Source: Pseudogemmobacter lacusdianii (GTDB lineage: Bacteria; Pseudomonadota; Alphaproteobacteria; Rhodobacterales; Rhodobacteraceae). Taken from it: 64,000 nt of DNA. A program made the translations under genes and the position numbers. Of the stretch, positions 58,350 through 63,919 are shown in pieces (position 1 is the stretch's first letter; each line of letters opens with the position of its first letter). The notes beneath the pieces are model-generated. The model had not been told where the DNA came from. It saw nothing but the letters and a program-made list of their open reading frames with translations, and made no database searches. The stretch covers positions 62,001 to 126,000 of the forward strand of contig NZ_JAVDBT010000003.1 of the NCBI RefSeq assembly GCF_030848395.1, in the 5' to 3' direction.

Positions 58350-58424
58350 TGGGGCGTCGCCAAGCGGTAAGGCAGCGGTTTTTGGTACCGCCATACCCAG
58401 GTTCGAATCCTGGCGCCCCAGCCA
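58350..58424 (+). tRNA. tRNA-Gln (TTG anticodon)
   Basis: Complete cloverleaf: acceptor TGGGGCG pairs CGCCCCA, D arm GCC/GGC, anticodon stem GCGGT/ACCGC with loop TTTTGGT (anticodon TTG), T arm CCAGG/CCTGG with loop TTCGAAT, then G and an encoded CCA at 58422-58424. Decodes CAA and, by wobble, CAG. Confidence 0.95.
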
Positions 58425-58498
58425 ACCACTTCCTGCGAAGGAAGCAAATCTTCCCAAAGACTTACCGGAAAGACGGCGGCTGAAAGGCCCCAAAGATT

Positions 58499-58521
58499 GC
58501 CCCGCGTCTAACGGGGCTTTT
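58499..58521 (+). terminator. Terminator downstream of tRNA-Gln
   Basis: GCCCCG and CGGGGC pair around seven bases, followed by four T, about 75 bp past the tRNA. Confidence 0.7.
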
Positions 58522-59053
58522 GCGCTTTGTCGATGCGGAATGGTGCAGGTTCCCATCATGCCTAATCCTCTGAAATCCCCCCGAGAACCTGCGCCCCTAC
58601 TGCCGCCGGGCGTATCAACATGTTCGCGTACGGGATCGGCCTCATCCTCTGACTTGATCTGTGTGAGATGGCAGCTTCGATGAAGCCGGGTTTAATGGGC
58701 GCGAAATCACCTGCGCTGACCTAGTAACGGTGGCACACTTATTCGAATCGAACGCTTCCGGAACACGAGCAAAGCTTAGGCCGCCCCGAAGCACGGATTC
58801 CTTGCCGCGGAAGTTGATTCCTTCAAAGTGATGGCAGTTTTCGCGACTGGGTCGGACCAGCCCCCGGCTGCGCGGGATGCCTTTGGCAATCGAGGGCTTG
58901 CAGAGCTGACATCGGAACTTTTTCGCGGTCTCCGCGTTATCCCTCACTGGGGTCGCCATCTCAAGCGTTCCGCTAAGGTTACGCCCTGATTCACGACCTC
59001 TGTTGAGCCAATTGTTTTAAGCCAGACGCGCCTTTCAGAACAGGGATGTAAAA
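58522..59053. other. Gene-poor stretch after tRNA-Gln
   Basis: About 530 bp without a recognisable gene, and visibly less GC-rich (roughly half to 55% by eye in several lines) than the flanking coding DNA. A minus-strand frame at 58642-58959 of 105 codons has low-complexity composition and matches no family I know. The stretch separates the tRNA from the amine-oxidase module and may be decayed mobile DNA. Confidence 0.5.
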
Positions 59054-60640
59054 ATGGTAGATCACATAAGCGGGATGACACGCAGGGGCGTGCTAACGAT
59101 GATCGGCCTCGCGGCGGGGGCATCGGCCATGTACACGGCGATGGCCGGTATGGGCCTTGCGGGGACCTCTAATTACAAGGGCCCGATCAAGCTTGAGGGT
59201 GATCCGAAGGGAACCTCTGTCCTGATCCTCGGTGCGGGGCTTGCCGGCCTGACGGCGGCGCTGGAGCTGCACAATGCGGGCTATAAGGTGCAAGTGCTGG
59301 AATACCGCGAGAAAGCCGGTGGCCGTTGCTGGACGCTGCGCGGGGGCGAAACCTACACCGAGCTTGGTGGTTTCAAGCAAGAGGTCAAGTTCACCGAAGG
59401 TAACTATCTGAACGCGGGCCCTTGGCGGATCCCCTCTGACCATTATGCCGTGCTTGATTATTGCCGCCGCTTTGGCGTGAAGCTTGAGCCCTTCATCCAG
59501 CAAAACTACAATGCCTATCTGCACAACAGCCAAGCCTTTGGCGGCAAGCCGCAGCGCTTCAAAGAGATCCAAGCCGATTACCGCGGTCAGATTTCGGAGC
59601 TTTTGGCCAAAGCGGTCGACCAAAAGAAGCTCGACGGCCCGCTGACCGATGATGACGCGGCCTTGTTGGTGGAATCCCTCAAGCGCTACGGCGTTTTGGA
59701 CGAGAACCTGGCTTATGTGAAATCTGACGCCACCTCGATCTATCGCGGCTGGGCGAAAGAGCCTGGCGGTGGTGTGGATGCAAAAGGCGAGCCGTCGGAC
59801 ATCATTTCACTGTCAGATATCCTGCAAGGCCGGCTCTGGCAGGATTTGATCACCGGCGAATCTATTGACCACCAAGCGGGAATTTTCCAGCCCGTCGGCG
59901 GTATGGATATGATCGCGCAAGGCTTTGAGCGCGAAGTCAAAGATCTGATCACTTACAACGCAAAGGTCATCAAGATCGAAGGTAGCGAGACAGGGGTCAG
60001 CGCGACTTATGTCGACAGCAATGGGGGCACGGCAGAGAAAACTGTCTCGGCGGATTATTGCATCTGCACCATCCCCTTCTCGGTGCTGAGCCAGATCGAG
60101 CACAACTTCAGCGGTGAAATGACGGAGGCGATCGACAGCGTCCCCTATGCATCCTCGATCAAAGTCGGGCTCGAGTTTAAGCGTCGGTTCTGGGAAGAGG
60201 ATGAGCATATCTATGGCGGCATCAGCTATACCGACACGCCGATCACGCTGATTTCCTATCCTTCGAATGATTATCTCAGCAAAGGGCCCGGCGTTTTGCT
60301 TGGCGCTTATTCATGGGGCGCGGCCTCTTACCAGTTCAACGCCATCCCTGCGGAAGAGCGGATCGAGATTGCCCTGAAATATGGTGAGATGATCCACAAG
60401 CAATATCGCGATGAGTATTCGAACGGCGTGACCGTCGCGTGGCACAGGGTTCCGTGGACGTTGGGCTGCTATGGCGAATGGCGTGACCAAGAGGCGCATT
60501 ACGACAATGCCTGCAAGATGGACCAACGCACGCTGATGGCGGGCGAGCATATCTCATATCTGCCGGCCTGGCAGGAGGGCGCCATTCTCTCGGCGTTGAA
60601 CGCGATTGAGCGGCTGCACAAAATCGTCACTGCGGCTTGA
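59054..60640 (+). CDS. Flavin amine oxidase with Tat signal
   Basis: FAD-dependent amine oxidase/dehydrogenase of 528 residues. A twin-arginine signal (MTRRGVLTMIGLAAGASAMY) has Arg10-Arg11, so the folded flavoprotein should be exported. FAD-binding GAGLAG is at residues 60-65, then GGRCWTLRGG, and the C-terminal AGEHISYLPAWQEGAI matches the family's second flavin motif. Related Tat-exported enzymes pass electrons to a cytochrome c (NicA2 with CycN, established). Here a cytochrome c gene follows 22 bases later. Substrate unknown. AGGGA lies seven bases before the ATG. Confidence 0.9.
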   Translation: MVDHISGMTRRGVLTMIGLAAGASAMYTAMAGMGLAGTSNYKGPIKLEGDPKGTSVLILGAGLAGLTAALELHNAGYKVQVLEYREKAGGRCWTLRGGETYTELGGFKQEVKFTEGNYLNAGPWRIPSDHYAVLDYCRRFGVKLEPFIQQNYNAYLHNSQAFGGKPQRFKEIQADYRGQISELLAKAVDQKKLDGPLTDDDAALLVESLKRYGVLDENLAYVKSDATSIYRGWAKEPGGGVDAKGEPSDIISLSDILQGRLWQDLITGESIDHQAGIFQPVGGMDMIAQGFEREVKDLITYNAKVIKIEGSETGVSATYVDSNGGTAEKTVSADYCICTIPFSVLSQIEHNFSGEMTEAIDSVPYASSIKVGLEFKRRFWEEDEHIYGGISYTDTPITLISYPSNDYLSKGPGVLLGAYSWGAASYQFNAIPAEERIEIALKYGEMIHKQYRDEYSNGVTVAWHRVPWTLGCYGEWRDQEAHYDNACKMDQRTLMAGEHISYLPAWQEGAILSALNAIERLHKIVTAA

Positions 60641-60662
60641 TGTGAAGAAAGGGAAGAACACC

Positions 60663-61064
60663 ATGAAACTCAAATTCTTCACCGTCGTCTTAACCGTTGG
60701 CCTCATGTCGCAAAGCGCCGCTTTCGGGCAAGACTTTGTGCAAAGCGGCACCGCGCCCACGCTTCCGCAGCGCGAAGGCAAAGAGATCTACAATGCGATT
60801 TGCTCGGGCTGCCATATGCCGGATGGTGTGGGTGCGGTCGGTGCGGCGGCCTATCCGCCGCTTGCAAAAAGCGACTTTGTGGGCAGCAAGGAAGCAACCG
60901 CGCAATGGGTGATCAAAGGCTATAAGGCGATGCCCCCCTTGGGCGATGTTATGGATGACGAGCAGATCGCCGCAGTGGTGAACTATGTGCGGACCAATCT
61001 CGGCAATGCCTACGACGACGAAGAGCTGACAGCGGCAGAAGTCGCTGACATCCGCACTTGGTAA
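60663..61064 (+). CDS. Class I c-type cytochrome
   Basis: Periplasmic monohaem cytochrome of 133 residues. A Sec signal peptide (FFTVVLTVGLMSQSAAFGQ) comes before the haem site CSGCH at residues 47-51, and the distal methionine is probably Met90 in YKAMPP. The C-terminal IAAVVNYVRTNLGN helix is typical of class I. AGGGAAG precedes the ATG. It is the likely electron acceptor of the amine oxidase encoded just upstream (inference from context). Confidence 0.9.
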   Translation: MKLKFFTVVLTVGLMSQSAAFGQDFVQSGTAPTLPQREGKEIYNAICSGCHMPDGVGAVGAAAYPPLAKSDFVGSKEATAQWVIKGYKAMPPLGDVMDDEQIAAVVNYVRTNLGNAYDDEELTAAEVADIRTW

Positions 61065-61104
61065 CCTGTCGTCCCTGATACGAGGCTTCACCGAGGCTTC
61101 AAAG

Positions 61105-61127
61105 CGCGCGCAGCGTCACTGCGCGCG
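61105..61127. repeat. Hairpin between cytochrome c gene and ridA-like gene
   Basis: CGCGCGCAG and CTGCGCGCG form a perfect 9-bp stem with loop CGTCA. Without a T-tract it may act as an mRNA stabiliser or attenuator. TATAGT at 61148-61153 could be the -10 of a separate promoter for the next gene. Confidence 0.4.
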
Positions 61128-61174
61128 TCCCCTCTCTCGGCTCTGTTATAGTATAGTTGATAAGGACAAGATCC

Positions 61175-61711
61175 ATGCGGAAAACTCTGGCACTGGCAGC
61201 GATGGTCGCTTCCCTCCCCGTCCTGGCTTTCCCGGCTTTGGCCGAAGGCGTCGTGCGGCACAAAACGCCGGGCTCGGATTTCCCGATTGCCCGTGCGGTG
61301 GAGGTTCCCGGTGGCAGCACCACGGTCTACCTCAGCGGGGTTGTGCCCGCGGTTGCCAAAGCGGATGCCGATCCCGCCACAGCCGAGGCTTGGGGCGACA
61401 CCAAAACCCAGACCATTTCTGTGCTCACCACCATTGAGGCCACTTTGAAGGACCTCGACCTTACGATGGGGGATGTGGTGAAGATGCAGGTCTTTTTGGT
61501 CGCCCCCGATGGTCAACCGGCAGATTTCTCGGGCTTCATGGAGGGATATACCCAGTTCTTCGGCACCGAAGCTCAACCCAACCTGCCCTCTCGCTCTGCC
61601 ATGATCGTGGATGCCTTGGTCCATCCGCAATGGCTGGTGGAGATTGAGGTGACCGCCGTGCGTCCGAGTGTGACACCTGCCGCCGAGGCTGAGAGCCCTG
61701 CGCAAAACTAA
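61175..61711 (+). CDS. Exported RidA family protein
   Basis: RidA/YjgF-fold protein of 178 residues with a Sec signal peptide (LALAAMVASLPVLAFPALA, likely cut after residue 23). RidA proteins hydrolyse reactive imines and enamines. The anion-binding arginine is kept (PSRSAMIVDAL, Arg140) and an acidic residue occurs in VEIEVTAV, so deaminase activity is plausible. Most RidA proteins are cytosolic; the signal peptide fits a periplasmic role beside the exported amine oxidase. AAGGA lies upstream. Confidence 0.85.
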   Translation: MRKTLALAAMVASLPVLAFPALAEGVVRHKTPGSDFPIARAVEVPGGSTTVYLSGVVPAVAKADADPATAEAWGDTKTQTISVLTTIEATLKDLDLTMGDVVKMQVFLVAPDGQPADFSGFMEGYTQFFGTEAQPNLPSRSAMIVDALVHPQWLVEIEVTAVRPSVTPAAEAESPAQN

Positions 61712-61793
61712 AGCGCGGCTCGGGGTGAATTGGCCCCAAAGATTGCCTCGCTGCGGCTGGGTGACACAGGCTTAAGCGCGACTGTAATCAAAT

Positions 61794-61833
61794 ATCCGCA
61801 GCTCGCCCCGCGCGCGCTGCGGATTGTCTTTTG
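61794..61833 (+). terminator. Probable terminator of the amine-oxidase module
   Basis: ATCCGCAGC at 61794-61802 and GCTGCGGAT at 61816-61824 pair perfectly around a 13-base GC-rich loop, followed by TGTCTTTTG. Confidence 0.6.
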
Positions 61834-62208
61834 TAGCCCCCTTGGGTGCGTTTGCCGGAGCAAAGTGCCACCTGTGTAAACTGGCAGTGGCATCATTGGG
61901 GCCTTTAGCACGCGGGCCGCGAGGCATAGGGGCAAGGCTTCGGCGACGCCTTGTAAGAGCCTCCAGCGCTATTGGGTCGCCTTGCTCAGGCCAAAAGGAG
62001 GCCGCGCACAATCGCTATGAGGCGCGTATGTTCCCAGACGGATGCCAGGGATTGCCCGGCTGCGCATGGTTTCGCTGATGCAAATGCCGTCAATCGGCAA
62101 GAACTTTCCGCCATAGCCAAGGACGCAACTCACAGCGGAACGATCGCCACGCCGTCGGGTTTGCTTTCCACGAAGGGTAACTCAGTTGCTCATTATGTGG
62201 AGTTGAAC
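61834..62208. other. Non-coding stretch before PRC-barrel gene
   Basis: About 375 bp with no convincing coding frame. It holds one small inverted repeat (CAAGGC/GCCTTG at 61933-61953) and presumably the promoter of the next gene. Nothing else is recognised. Confidence 0.4.
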
Positions 62209-62703
62209 ATGCGTAAGTATACCGTTTCCGCGATCGCACTGACTGGTGTCATGGCCCTGGGTCTGCCGGCCTTTGCCCAAGAGGCAACCCCTGCCCCTGC
62301 GGCGCCCGCCGTCGAAGCAACCGAGGCGCCGGTAACCACCGAGGCTCCTGCCACCACGGCTCCTGCCGCGACCGCAGGTGATCCCGCTGTCACCATCGTC
62401 GCCCCCGAGGGCTACAGCATGGCTGATTTCGCCACCGTGACCGCCGATCAGCTGAAAGGCGTGAATCTCTATGACGCCGAGGGCAATGATGTCGCTGAGA
62501 TCGCCGATGTGGTGATTGGCGCCGACAATAAGGTGACTGGCATCATCACCGATGTGGGTGGCTTCCTTGGGATGGGCGAACACCGCGTCTCGCTGAACCC
62601 CGATCAGGTCCATATCTACAAAAACACCGATGGTGACATGCGCGCCTATGTGCCGATGACCAAAGACGCGTTGAAGGCCCTCCCGGCCTATGTGGCGCCG
62701 TAA
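62209..62703 (+). CDS. PRC-barrel domain-containing exported protein
   Basis: Exported protein of 164 residues. A Sec signal (SAIALTGVMALGLPAFAQ) is followed by a linker of about fifty residues rich in alanine, proline, threonine and glutamate, then a PRC-barrel domain: LKGVNLYDAEGNDVAEIADV and HRVSLNPDQVHIYKN. GGAG lies upstream of the ATG. Periplasmic PRC-barrel proteins of this kind are common in Rhodobacteraceae; function unknown. A perfect terminator follows. Confidence 0.85.
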   Translation: MRKYTVSAIALTGVMALGLPAFAQEATPAPAAPAVEATEAPVTTEAPATTAPAATAGDPAVTIVAPEGYSMADFATVTADQLKGVNLYDAEGNDVAEIADVVIGADNKVTGIITDVGGFLGMGEHRVSLNPDQVHIYKNTDGDMRAYVPMTKDALKALPAYVAP

Positions 62704-62760
62704 CGGCTTGCCCGCCGCTAAAGCGATGGCCCTTTCATGGCCGCCCCTTTAGCGCAGAAC

Positions 62761-62787
62761 GCCCCCGGATACTCCGGGGGCGTTTTT
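62761..62787. terminator. Strong terminator between PRC-barrel gene and aroB
   Basis: GCCCCCGGA and TCCGGGGGC pair around three bases, followed by five T. Confidence 0.8.
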
Positions 62788-62812
62788 GCATGTTGTCGTG
62801 GGGGATCTGGCC

Positions 62813-63919
62813 TTAGGCCATCGCGTCTTGCAAAAGCCGCAAGACTTGGTCGCGCGGCACATCTTCGGCCACAAAGGCTTGACCGATCCCGCGCGCCAAG
62901 ATGAAGCGCAACTGGCCGTCGATGACCTTTTTGTCTTGCCCCATCAGCTCGAGCAAAGCCTCTGGGCCCGGCAGATCTCCGGGGATGTCGCGGATATCCA
63001 CCTTGGTGCCCATAGCACGCAGATGCGCGCGCAGCCGGCTTGGGTCTTCTTGCGAGCAAAGCCCAAGACGGGCCGAAAGCTCAAAGGCCAAAGCACAGCC
63101 GATCGCCACGCCCTCACCATGTAAGAGCCGATCAGAGTAACCGGTGGCCTTCTCCAGCGCATGGCAGAAGGTATGGCCAAGGTTCAAAAGCGCGCGCTCG
63201 CCCTCTTCCGTCTCATCCCGTGCGACGATCCCGGCCTTCATCTCAACCGAGCGGGTGACAGCGCGCAGCCGTGCCGCCGCATCGCCTGCGGCCAAGGCCG
63301 GGCCTTCCGCTTCAAGCCAGTCGAAGAAGGCGGCATCGCCCAGAAGCCCGTATTTCATCACCTCGCCATAACCGGCCAGAAAATCGCGCGGTGGCAAGGT
63401 TTGCAGCACGTCAATATCTGCCAGCACAAGGCTTGGTTGATGGAAGGCGCCGACAAGGTTCTTGCCCTGCGCGGTGTTGATGCCGGTCTTGCCACCGACG
63501 GAGCTGTCGACTTGCGCCAGCAGCGAGGTAGGGATTTGAACAAAGCGCACCCCACGCCGCAAAACGGCGGCGGCAAAGCCCACGAGATCGCCAATCACCC
63601 CGCCGCCAAGCGCCACCACCACATCGCGCCGCTCGACCTTTTGCTCCAAGAGCCATTCGACACATTGCGAGAAATATTGCCAGCTTTTCGTCGCTTCACC
63701 GGGCGGCAAGCTCAGCGCCGACACCGCGATGCCTTGGGCCTCCAAAGCCGCCGTCAGCGCTGGCAGATGCAAAGCCGCGACGGTCGCATCGCTGACCACA
63801 ACCACGCGCTTGCGGCGCAGCAAGGGCGCGATCTCGGCTCCGGCGCGCGCGATCAGCCCCGACCCAATGCGCACGTCATAGGCACGCGCGCCAAGTTCCA
63901 CCCGTACCCTATTGGTCAT
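62813..63919 (-). CDS. aroB: 3-dehydroquinate synthase
   Basis: Second step of the shikimate pathway, making 3-dehydroquinate from DAHP with NAD and a divalent metal; 368 residues. The NAD-binding GGGVIGDLVGFAAA, the QIPTSLLAQVDSSVGGKTGIN motif and the metal-binding His in LNLGHTFCHALE are present. The ATG at 63919 has GAGG seven bases upstream and is preferred to a GTG two codons earlier. It begins two bases after the stop of the upstream aroK-like gene. Confidence 0.97.
   Translation of the reverse strand: MTNRVRVELGARAYDVRIGSGLIARAGAEIAPLLRRKRVVVVSDATVAALHLPALTAALEAQGIAVSALSLPPGEATKSWQYFSQCVEWLLEQKVERRDVVVALGGGVIGDLVGFAAAVLRRGVRFVQIPTSLLAQVDSSVGGKTGINTAQGKNLVGAFHQPSLVLADIDVLQTLPPRDFLAGYGEVMKYGLLGDAAFFDWLEAEGPALAAGDAAARLRAVTRSVEMKAGIVARDETEEGERALLNLGHTFCHALEKATGYSDRLLHGEGVAIGCALAFELSARLGLCSQEDPSRLRAHLRAMGTKVDIRDIPGDLPGPEALLELMGQDKKVIDGQLRFILARGIGQAFVAEDVPRDQVLRLLQDAMA

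Follow-up and report, generated by a model that had tools for sequence, protein, structure and literature searches.

Several described systems resemble the locus analyzed here. In Gluconacetobacter diazotrophicus, Tn5 insertions in lao, which encodes an L-amino-acid oxidase (LAAO) predicted to be exported by the twin-arginine translocation (Tat) system, lower the transcripts of lao, cccA, and ridA and abolish the formation of indole-3-acetic acid (IAA) from tryptophan (Rodrigues et al. 2016, PMC5053998); cytochrome-maturation mutants cited in that paper make 5% of the IAA. A Tat-exported flavoprotein encoded next to a cytochrome c is a good predictor of dehydrogenases that use the cytochrome (Akram et al. 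2025, PMC12224317). Genes for RidA, and sometimes for Rid3, cluster with genes of the amine-oxidase family (Niehaus et al. 2015, PMC4433059), and two proteins named Rid3, PSPTO3006 and PFL1385, deaminate imines made by LAAO (PMC5619798). Here we describe three genes at positions 59054..61711 of a 64,000-nucleotide stretch of the Pseudogemmobacter lacusdianii genome (contig NZ_JAVDBT010000003.1, positions 62,001 to 126,000; hereafter the window). This trio, already described genetically as lao-cccA-ridA (PMC5053998), likely forms a periplasmic L-amino-acid dehydrogenase module that consists of a flavin amine oxidase (FAO) of the LAAO type, a cytochrome c as electron acceptor, and a Rid3 protein hydrolyzing the imine. 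The assignment rests on sequence comparison, namely on family, export signals, conserved residues, gene linkage, and co-occurrence.

The three genes are arranged head to tail on the plus strand, with intergenic gaps of 22 and 110 bases. Their main features are as follows.

59054..60640, plus strand: FAO of the LAAO type, 528 aa, predicted Tat-exported; start possibly the ATG at 59075
59075..59164, plus strand: twin-arginine signal region (TRRGVL.., uncharged core), from sequence; RR in 79/84 aligned rows, KR in 5/84
59426..59428, plus strand: Arg125, predicted carboxylate-binding Arg (Arg90 of snake venom LAAO, svLAAO), invariant (84/84, 28/28); mapped via the 2jae alignment
60161..60163, plus strand: Lys370, at the alignment position of the conserved FAO lysine close to flavin N5, invariant (84/84)
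60308..60310, plus strand: Tyr419, predicted substrate-site Tyr (svLAAO Tyr372), invariant (84/84, 28/28)
60663..61064, plus strand: small c-type cytochrome, 133 aa, predicted Sec signal; PF13442, E 2.3e-15
60801..60815, plus strand: haem-binding motif CSGCH of the cytochrome, from sequence
61175..61711, plus strand: Rid3-type protein of the RidA family, 178 aa, predicted exported; PF01042, best PDB matches 9bka and 9bkc
61175..61243, plus strand: Sec signal peptide of Rid, predicted cleavage after ALA; kept across relatives
61592..61594, plus strand: Arg140 of Rid, counterpart of the catalytic Arg in imine-hydrolyzing Rid proteins; 55/55 Rid rows, aligned with the PARS Arg of HI0719

An earlier sequence-only reading had proposed a three-gene module at this place, with a Tat signal on the oxidase and Sec signals on the cytochrome and the RidA homolog. 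The open reading frames and their Pfam families agree with it (Amino_oxidase, E 2.9e-57; Cytochrome_CBB3, E 2.3e-15, with a CXXCH motif; Ribonuc_L-PSP, E 1.3e-15), and the N-terminal motifs bear out all three export signals, which were judged by sequence motif and not by SignalP. The N-terminus of the flavoprotein, MTRRGVLTMIGLAAGASAMYTAMAG, is of the Tat type, and its translation may start at M8 rather than at M1. The N-termini of the cytochrome, MKLKFFTVVLTVGLMSQSAAFGQ, and of Rid, MRKTLALAAMVASLPVLAFPALA, are of the Sec type; the Rid gene starts from the ATG at 61175, not from the TTG at 61157. The trio probably encodes exported proteins that oxidize L-amino acids outside the cytoplasm.

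The flavoprotein has the fold and the substrate-site Arg and Tyr of the LAAO family (Arg125 and Tyr419), and its structural model is closest to LAAO. Arg84 and Tyr371 are the residue names in the R. opacus LAAO; a literature search for its residue names found nothing. The role of svLAAO Arg90 is taken from PMC7052187. Because the enzyme is LAAO-like and carries residues for the carboxylate of an amino acid, the earlier description as oxidation of an amine, substrate unknown, is revised to oxidation of an L-amino acid; aromatic amino acids such as tryptophan are the best guess, by analogy with G. diazotrophicus. A plain amine (polyamine, aromatic amine, or alkaloid), as suggested by the first reading and by the annotation 'flavin monoamine oxidase', was rejected as the first-choice substrate and seems highly unlikely: the Pfam family is common to amine oxidases, and amines are the substrates of NicA2 and Pnao, the Tat/cytochrome pairs studied in most detail (PMC12224317), but Arg125 and Tyr419 do not vary in any of the 84 sequences, the model is closest by far to an LAAO, and the phenotype of the lao-cccA-ridA cluster is tryptophan-dependent (PMC5053998). 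The name NicA2 appears neither in the 60 PDB sequences nor in the 50 structure-search rows listed, an absence that excludes nothing.

Gene linkage was assessed by a profile scan of genome contigs with a six-sequence alignment, which gave at least 522 relatives of the FAO; the best 80 of these (53-81% identity) were kept. They come from Alpha-, Beta-, and Gammaproteobacteria, two Campylobacteraceae, and one record labelled Eremiobacteraeota. The cytochrome gene adjoins the FAO gene in 79 of these 80 loci, and both cytochrome and Rid genes adjoin it in 51; in two loci (L049 and L066) the cytochrome is adjacent and Rid lies elsewhere in the stretch, and one locus (L091) has neither. Since these loci are the closest relatives, the figures are not prevalences. 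The gene order of the trio recurs in a genome of the same genus (L002), and the more distant L003 has the order Rid-FAO-cytochrome. The FAO relatives L004, L005, and L006 have neither partner within their 1.5-kb flanks; a Rid of the trio type occurs 3.4 kb farther on in the L005 genome.

For an even sample, we searched 398 evenly drawn Pseudomonadota genomes with models of Rid (E up to 1e-15) and FAO (E up to 1e-60). The Rid model matches 25 genomes at 26 places, and the FAO model matches 27 genomes at 31 places. Both occur in 24 genomes, FAO alone in 3, Rid alone in 1, and neither in 370 (Fisher p 3.7e-34, uncorrected for kinship). When the surroundings of all 26 Rid places, that of the window included, were read, FAO was found near Rid in 25; among these 25, it is about 3 kb away in two (L225 and L227), and L228 is the second Rid of its locus. 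The exception (L230) is a Rid remnant in a 110-aa frame. Distances between FAO proteins correlate with those between their Rid proteins (55 rows, Mantel r 0.72, reached in 0 of 999 permutations). A chance neighborhood was rejected given the 79/80 and 51/80 adjacencies and this co-occurrence, and the outcome that would have spoken against the earlier reading, absence of the trio elsewhere, is refuted by the 51 close loci and by the even-sample loci.

A Tat signal on the FAO and an adjacent Sec-exported cytochrome c, the combination that often marks cytochrome-using FAO dehydrogenases, are both present in the window by motif. Several observations weigh against the proposed module. Most characterized LAAOs are O2 oxidases. 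Among the 30 readable FAO places of the even sample (of 31), a cytochrome is adjacent in 23 and absent from that position in 7, and Rid lies within 1.5 kb in 22 and not in 8; moreover, 26 of the 80 best loci have the cytochrome and no Rid in the stretch examined. Thus, the FAO does not strictly require either partner as a direct neighbor. Shared ancestry is not accounted for in the co-occurrence and Mantel tests, and the FAO tree (a quick tree) shows 13 to 17 changes in Rid adjacency, so the FAO-Rid pair is often rearranged or lost. Finally, the reaction of the clade 1 enzymes of Akram et al. with their cytochrome is slow (PMC12224317).

In a rival explanation, the enzyme is a true periplasmic LAAO using O2 and making H2O2, with the cytochrome in another role (e.g., peroxide removal) or simply co-inherited, and with Rid clearing the imine. 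Five of the seven cytochrome-less FAO places have a Tat-like N-terminus and may be O2 oxidases, Tat FAOs without a cytochrome are mostly fast with O2 (PMC12224317), and the structural neighbors of the modelled enzyme are oxidases. We nevertheless consider this explanation unlikely for the window in view of the cytochrome adjacency in all but one of the best relatives, the predictive value of the Tat-cytochrome combination (PMC12224317), and the small part of IAA formation that is kept by the G. diazotrophicus cytochrome-maturation mutants (PMC5053998).

The window Rid belongs to the fold family with the essential Arg (PF01042), and Arg140 is present in all Rid rows. The nearest solved structures are 9bka (PSPTO3006, E 1.8e-29) and 9bkc (PFL1385, E 1.6e-21), followed by HI0719 (E 2.9e-7). 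A rival proposal, which we regard as quite improbable, is that the exported Rid serves chiefly as a structural subunit or a protective protein of the enzyme, like Mbeta of the Chlamydomonas LAAO complex as first described. It draws on the LAAO/RidA complex of the Chlamydomonas periplasm, where RidA is the non-catalytic Mbeta subunit (cited in PMC5053998). Against it, the catalytic Arg140 is kept in 55/55 rows and Glu158 in 54/55, and the Rid3 relatives are active deaminases (PMC5619798).

Export of Rid is a conserved feature of the trio. By a simple rule (positive n-region, uncharged hydrophobic core, and AxA or lipobox), 56 of the 57 Rid frames of the trio type have a signal peptide, and the one without it is the second piece of a frameshifted Rid (L106). 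Under a stricter rule, which considers only sequence upstream of the conserved core and counts the window apart and L106 once, the signal is found in 54 of 55 loci; the remaining one (L072) reads MIRRPAVHKAIHAAALATLLVSFASSAQ, an obvious signal by eye. The simple rule finds no signal in any of 30 further PF01042 genes of the window genome and related genomes, the control set being the 30 of 101 listed PF01042 places that came with loci. A mis-annotated Rid start was rejected, as the signal peptides are conserved across relatives. In the even sample, 23 of 26 Rid places have a signal peptide, the others being L224, L226, and L230. The possibility, raised with the first reading, that RidA homologs lack signals is therefore refuted for nearly all of them, with two PSPTO_3006-like Rids and the one remnant as exceptions.

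The two exceptional Rids (L224 and L226) are encoded in two genomes within a single genus (G401 and G343) and start close to the core like PSPTO_3006; that of L226 is 45% identical to the window Rid. Their FAOs have a charged region in place of the Tat core, and no cytochrome was found beside them. These loci thus lack the Rid signal, the Tat core, and the cytochrome at once, which would be expected if Rid has to share the compartment of its enzyme; this joint absence is seen in one genus only.

The simple rule flags a lipobox in ten Rid frames (L049, L050, L075, L078, L083, L085, L089, L093, L095, and L097), of which L085 and L097 are doubtful; under the stricter rule, 11 of 54 Rids have one. 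Five of the ten frames are from Alteromonadaceae, and L075 groups with those on the FAO tree, so Rid should be a lipoprotein in Alteromonadaceae. Rids with a lipobox, predicted lipoproteins, were seen beside the oxidase in L075, L078, L083, L089, L093, L095, L208, L210, L213, and L214.

For the electron transfer to the cytochrome, the periplasmic imine hydrolysis, and the amino acid identity, we infer the following pathway: (i) the Tat-exported flavoenzyme would bind the carboxylate of an L-amino acid via Arg125 and Tyr419; (ii) hydride transfer to flavin adenine dinucleotide (FAD) would convert L-amino acid and FAD to 2-imino acid and FADH2, as indicated by the family and residues; (iii) two cytochrome c molecules would re-oxidize the flavin, following the NicA2/Pnao precedent, and pass the electrons on to terminal oxidases; and (iv) the exported Rid3 would hydrolyze the 2-imino acid in the periplasm, releasing 2-oxo acid and ammonium, consistent with Arg140, export, and the activity of Rid3. 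We suggest that a dehydrogenase whose acceptor is reversible would benefit from rapid loss of its product: removal of the imine would pull the reversible flavin step forward and prevent both re-entry and side reactions of the imine.

The role ascribed to Rid proteins is the protection of cytoplasmic enzymes dependent on pyridoxal phosphate (PLP). No PLP enzymes that Rid could protect are known in the periplasm, a circumstance that also speaks for the structural role of Rid considered above. More broadly, the exported Rid3 branch could be the dedicated extracytoplasmic imino-acid deaminase of respiratory L-amino-acid dehydrogenases, following the enzyme between compartments. In this proposal, Rid3 would be soluble and periplasmic in most of the lineages examined, a lipoprotein in several, among them Alteromonadaceae, and once more cytoplasmic wherever the enzyme has lost both export signal and cytochrome, and the unrelated L-amino-acid deaminase (LAAD) of Proteus would have recruited it a second time; taken with all these steps, we judge the chances of the proposal to be evenly balanced. 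If it is true, imine damage would have to be controlled outside the cytoplasm, in a place without endangered PLP enzymes, perhaps because a dehydrogenase step that could otherwise run backward is committed by hydrolysis. An exported Rid branch that is almost always beside one enzyme would show imine hydrolysis as part of an extracytoplasmic pathway and would give Rid3 a concrete job. The results also suggest that many proteobacterial genes named 'flavin monoamine oxidase' encode respiratory L-amino-acid dehydrogenases. Such enzymes would let cells draw electrons from external amino acids and, when tryptophan is the substrate, make auxin precursors outside the cell membrane.

The trio lies in a segment of the following extent.

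58450..62816, no strand assigned: extra segment, trio included, absent between tRNA-Gln and aroB in three same-genus genomes by comparison

The tRNA-Gln gene occupies positions 58350-58424. In 3 of 13 same-genus genomes (including that of the window) aroB follows it after 59-93 bases, and the window has about 4.4 kb extra at this place; in the other nine genomes, aroB was not in the flank examined. The trio either came into the tRNA-Gln/aroB site or was lost in the three relatives. No repeat of the tRNA-Gln end was found at the far side of the segment by exact matches of 10 to 20 bases, the only one being of 10 bases at 60888, so insertion of the integrase type is not shown. The FAO has strong matches in 2 of 13 same-genus genomes and in 6 of 60 relatives. 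The trio of genome G008 is at another place (contig C8), its tRNA-Gln region being on C3. FAO relatives are found in 38 plasmid records, and both annotated plasmid regions that were read, from Sulfitobacter indolifex and Paracoccus marcusii, contain the full trio. Given the patchy presence within the genus, the other location in G008, and the plasmid copies, the trio appears to move horizontally.

Several further features were observed at these sites. The extra segment also encodes an exported-looking PRC-barrel protein (62068-62703), absent at tRNA-Gln/aroB in the three relatives. At the site corresponding to the trio border, G008 has two tRNA-Gln-like copies close together, the second a 95% match (G008:C3:260201-260430, L150). 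The conjugative plasmid pGX5 of Komagataeibacter xylinus (L159:3776-4459) has annotated short cytochrome c and Rid genes preceded by integrase-type and IstB genes, with no oxidase gene annotated in the stretch. A plasmid of Sphingomonas parapaucimobilis (L165) carries a trio-type RidA gene near genes for a TonB receptor, an FAD-dependent oxidoreductase, and a tryptophan halogenase-family protein.

Between the cytochrome and Rid genes of the window, a GC-rich hairpin of 10 pairs (61104-61128) is followed by an AT-rich TATAGTATAG stretch, possibly an attenuator or a separate promoter of the Rid gene. Its folding energy is unremarkable (equaled or surpassed by 15 of 200 shuffles, z -1.7), and it is not listed among the terminator-like sites of the window. 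Among additional neighbors in the 80 loci, TonB receptors form the largest cluster (10/80), and the remaining clusters listed, other than M20 peptidases, span at most 7 loci; Pfam families of the TonB receptor and M20 peptidase clusters were checked on one member each. M20 peptidase genes are beside the trio in 6/80 loci, all from Bradyrhizobium (L059, L061, L071, L085, L088, and L099, near the oxidase; Pfam checked for L061), and may possibly be a source of free amino acids.

Comparison with the known systems reveals both shared and distinct features. NicA2-CycN-Pnao and the other Tat FAO/cytochrome c dehydrogenases (PMC9396064, PMC12224317) share with the window a Tat-exported FAO and an adjacent Sec-exported cytochrome c, whereas the window enzyme resembles LAAOs and is accompanied by a Rid; the terms 'Rid' and 'L-amino acid' occur 0 times in PMC12224317. 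The Rid3 proteins PSPTO_3006 and PFL_1385 (PMC4433059, PMC5619798), the nearest of solved structure to the window Rid, belong to a group with imine deaminase activity, to which the window Rid is likened by sequence. The difference lies in export: 'periplasm' and 'signal' occur 0 times in these two papers, the PSPTO_3006-like Rid of L226 has no signal, unlike the window Rid, and no mention of bacterial Rid3 export was found in the open-licence papers searched.

In Chlamydomonas, the periplasmic LAO1 and LAO2-RIDA (PMC10805672) likewise combine an extracytoplasmic LAAO with a RidA partner and convert tryptophan to indole-3-pyruvate. This system differs in being eukaryotic and in making H2O2, and no cytochrome partner is named in the excerpts consulted from that paper. 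The LAAD of Proteus (PDB 5fjm) is Tat-borne and respiratory and deaminates L-amino acids outside the cytoplasm, as proposed for the window module, and LAADs of this kind pass electrons to the respiratory chain without H2O2 (PMC9561763). It belongs to an unrelated flavoprotein family (PF01266), and only its FAD motif matches the window enzyme. In Proteus mirabilis (L158:2476-4435), an exported Rid, 48% identical to the window Rid, is encoded 40 bases after the LAAD gene (5fjm, 960 bits), which supports amino acids as the source of the imine. Electrons of LAAD go to the membrane chain, and no cytochrome c gene lies between or beside the two genes in L158. Two P. mirabilis records have adjacent match coordinates, with the gene reading taken from L158. 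No Rid is annotated in the stretch examined around an LAAD relative on an Erwinia plasmid, which leaves the LAAD-Rid pair supported by a single species; in the even sample, LAAD relatives do not exceed 38% identity.

The lao-cccA-ridA cluster of G. diazotrophicus PAL5 (GDI2456-2454) has the same three genes in the same order, with an LAAO predicted to be Tat-exported in both. Its described role is formation of IAA from tryptophan, and export of Rid is unmentioned in the excerpts consulted (PMC5053998). The peptides encoded by the published PAL5 primers, on which, with their positions, our orthology comparison is based, fall within two positions of matching residues in all three window proteins: YPSHGYF at codon 404 and YPSNDYL at 402, AIYQHV at 41 and EIYNAI at 41, and ASTIYL at 48 and STTVYL at 48. 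As the Rid peptide has the same number (48) in both, GDI2454 should have about the same N-terminal length as the window Rid.

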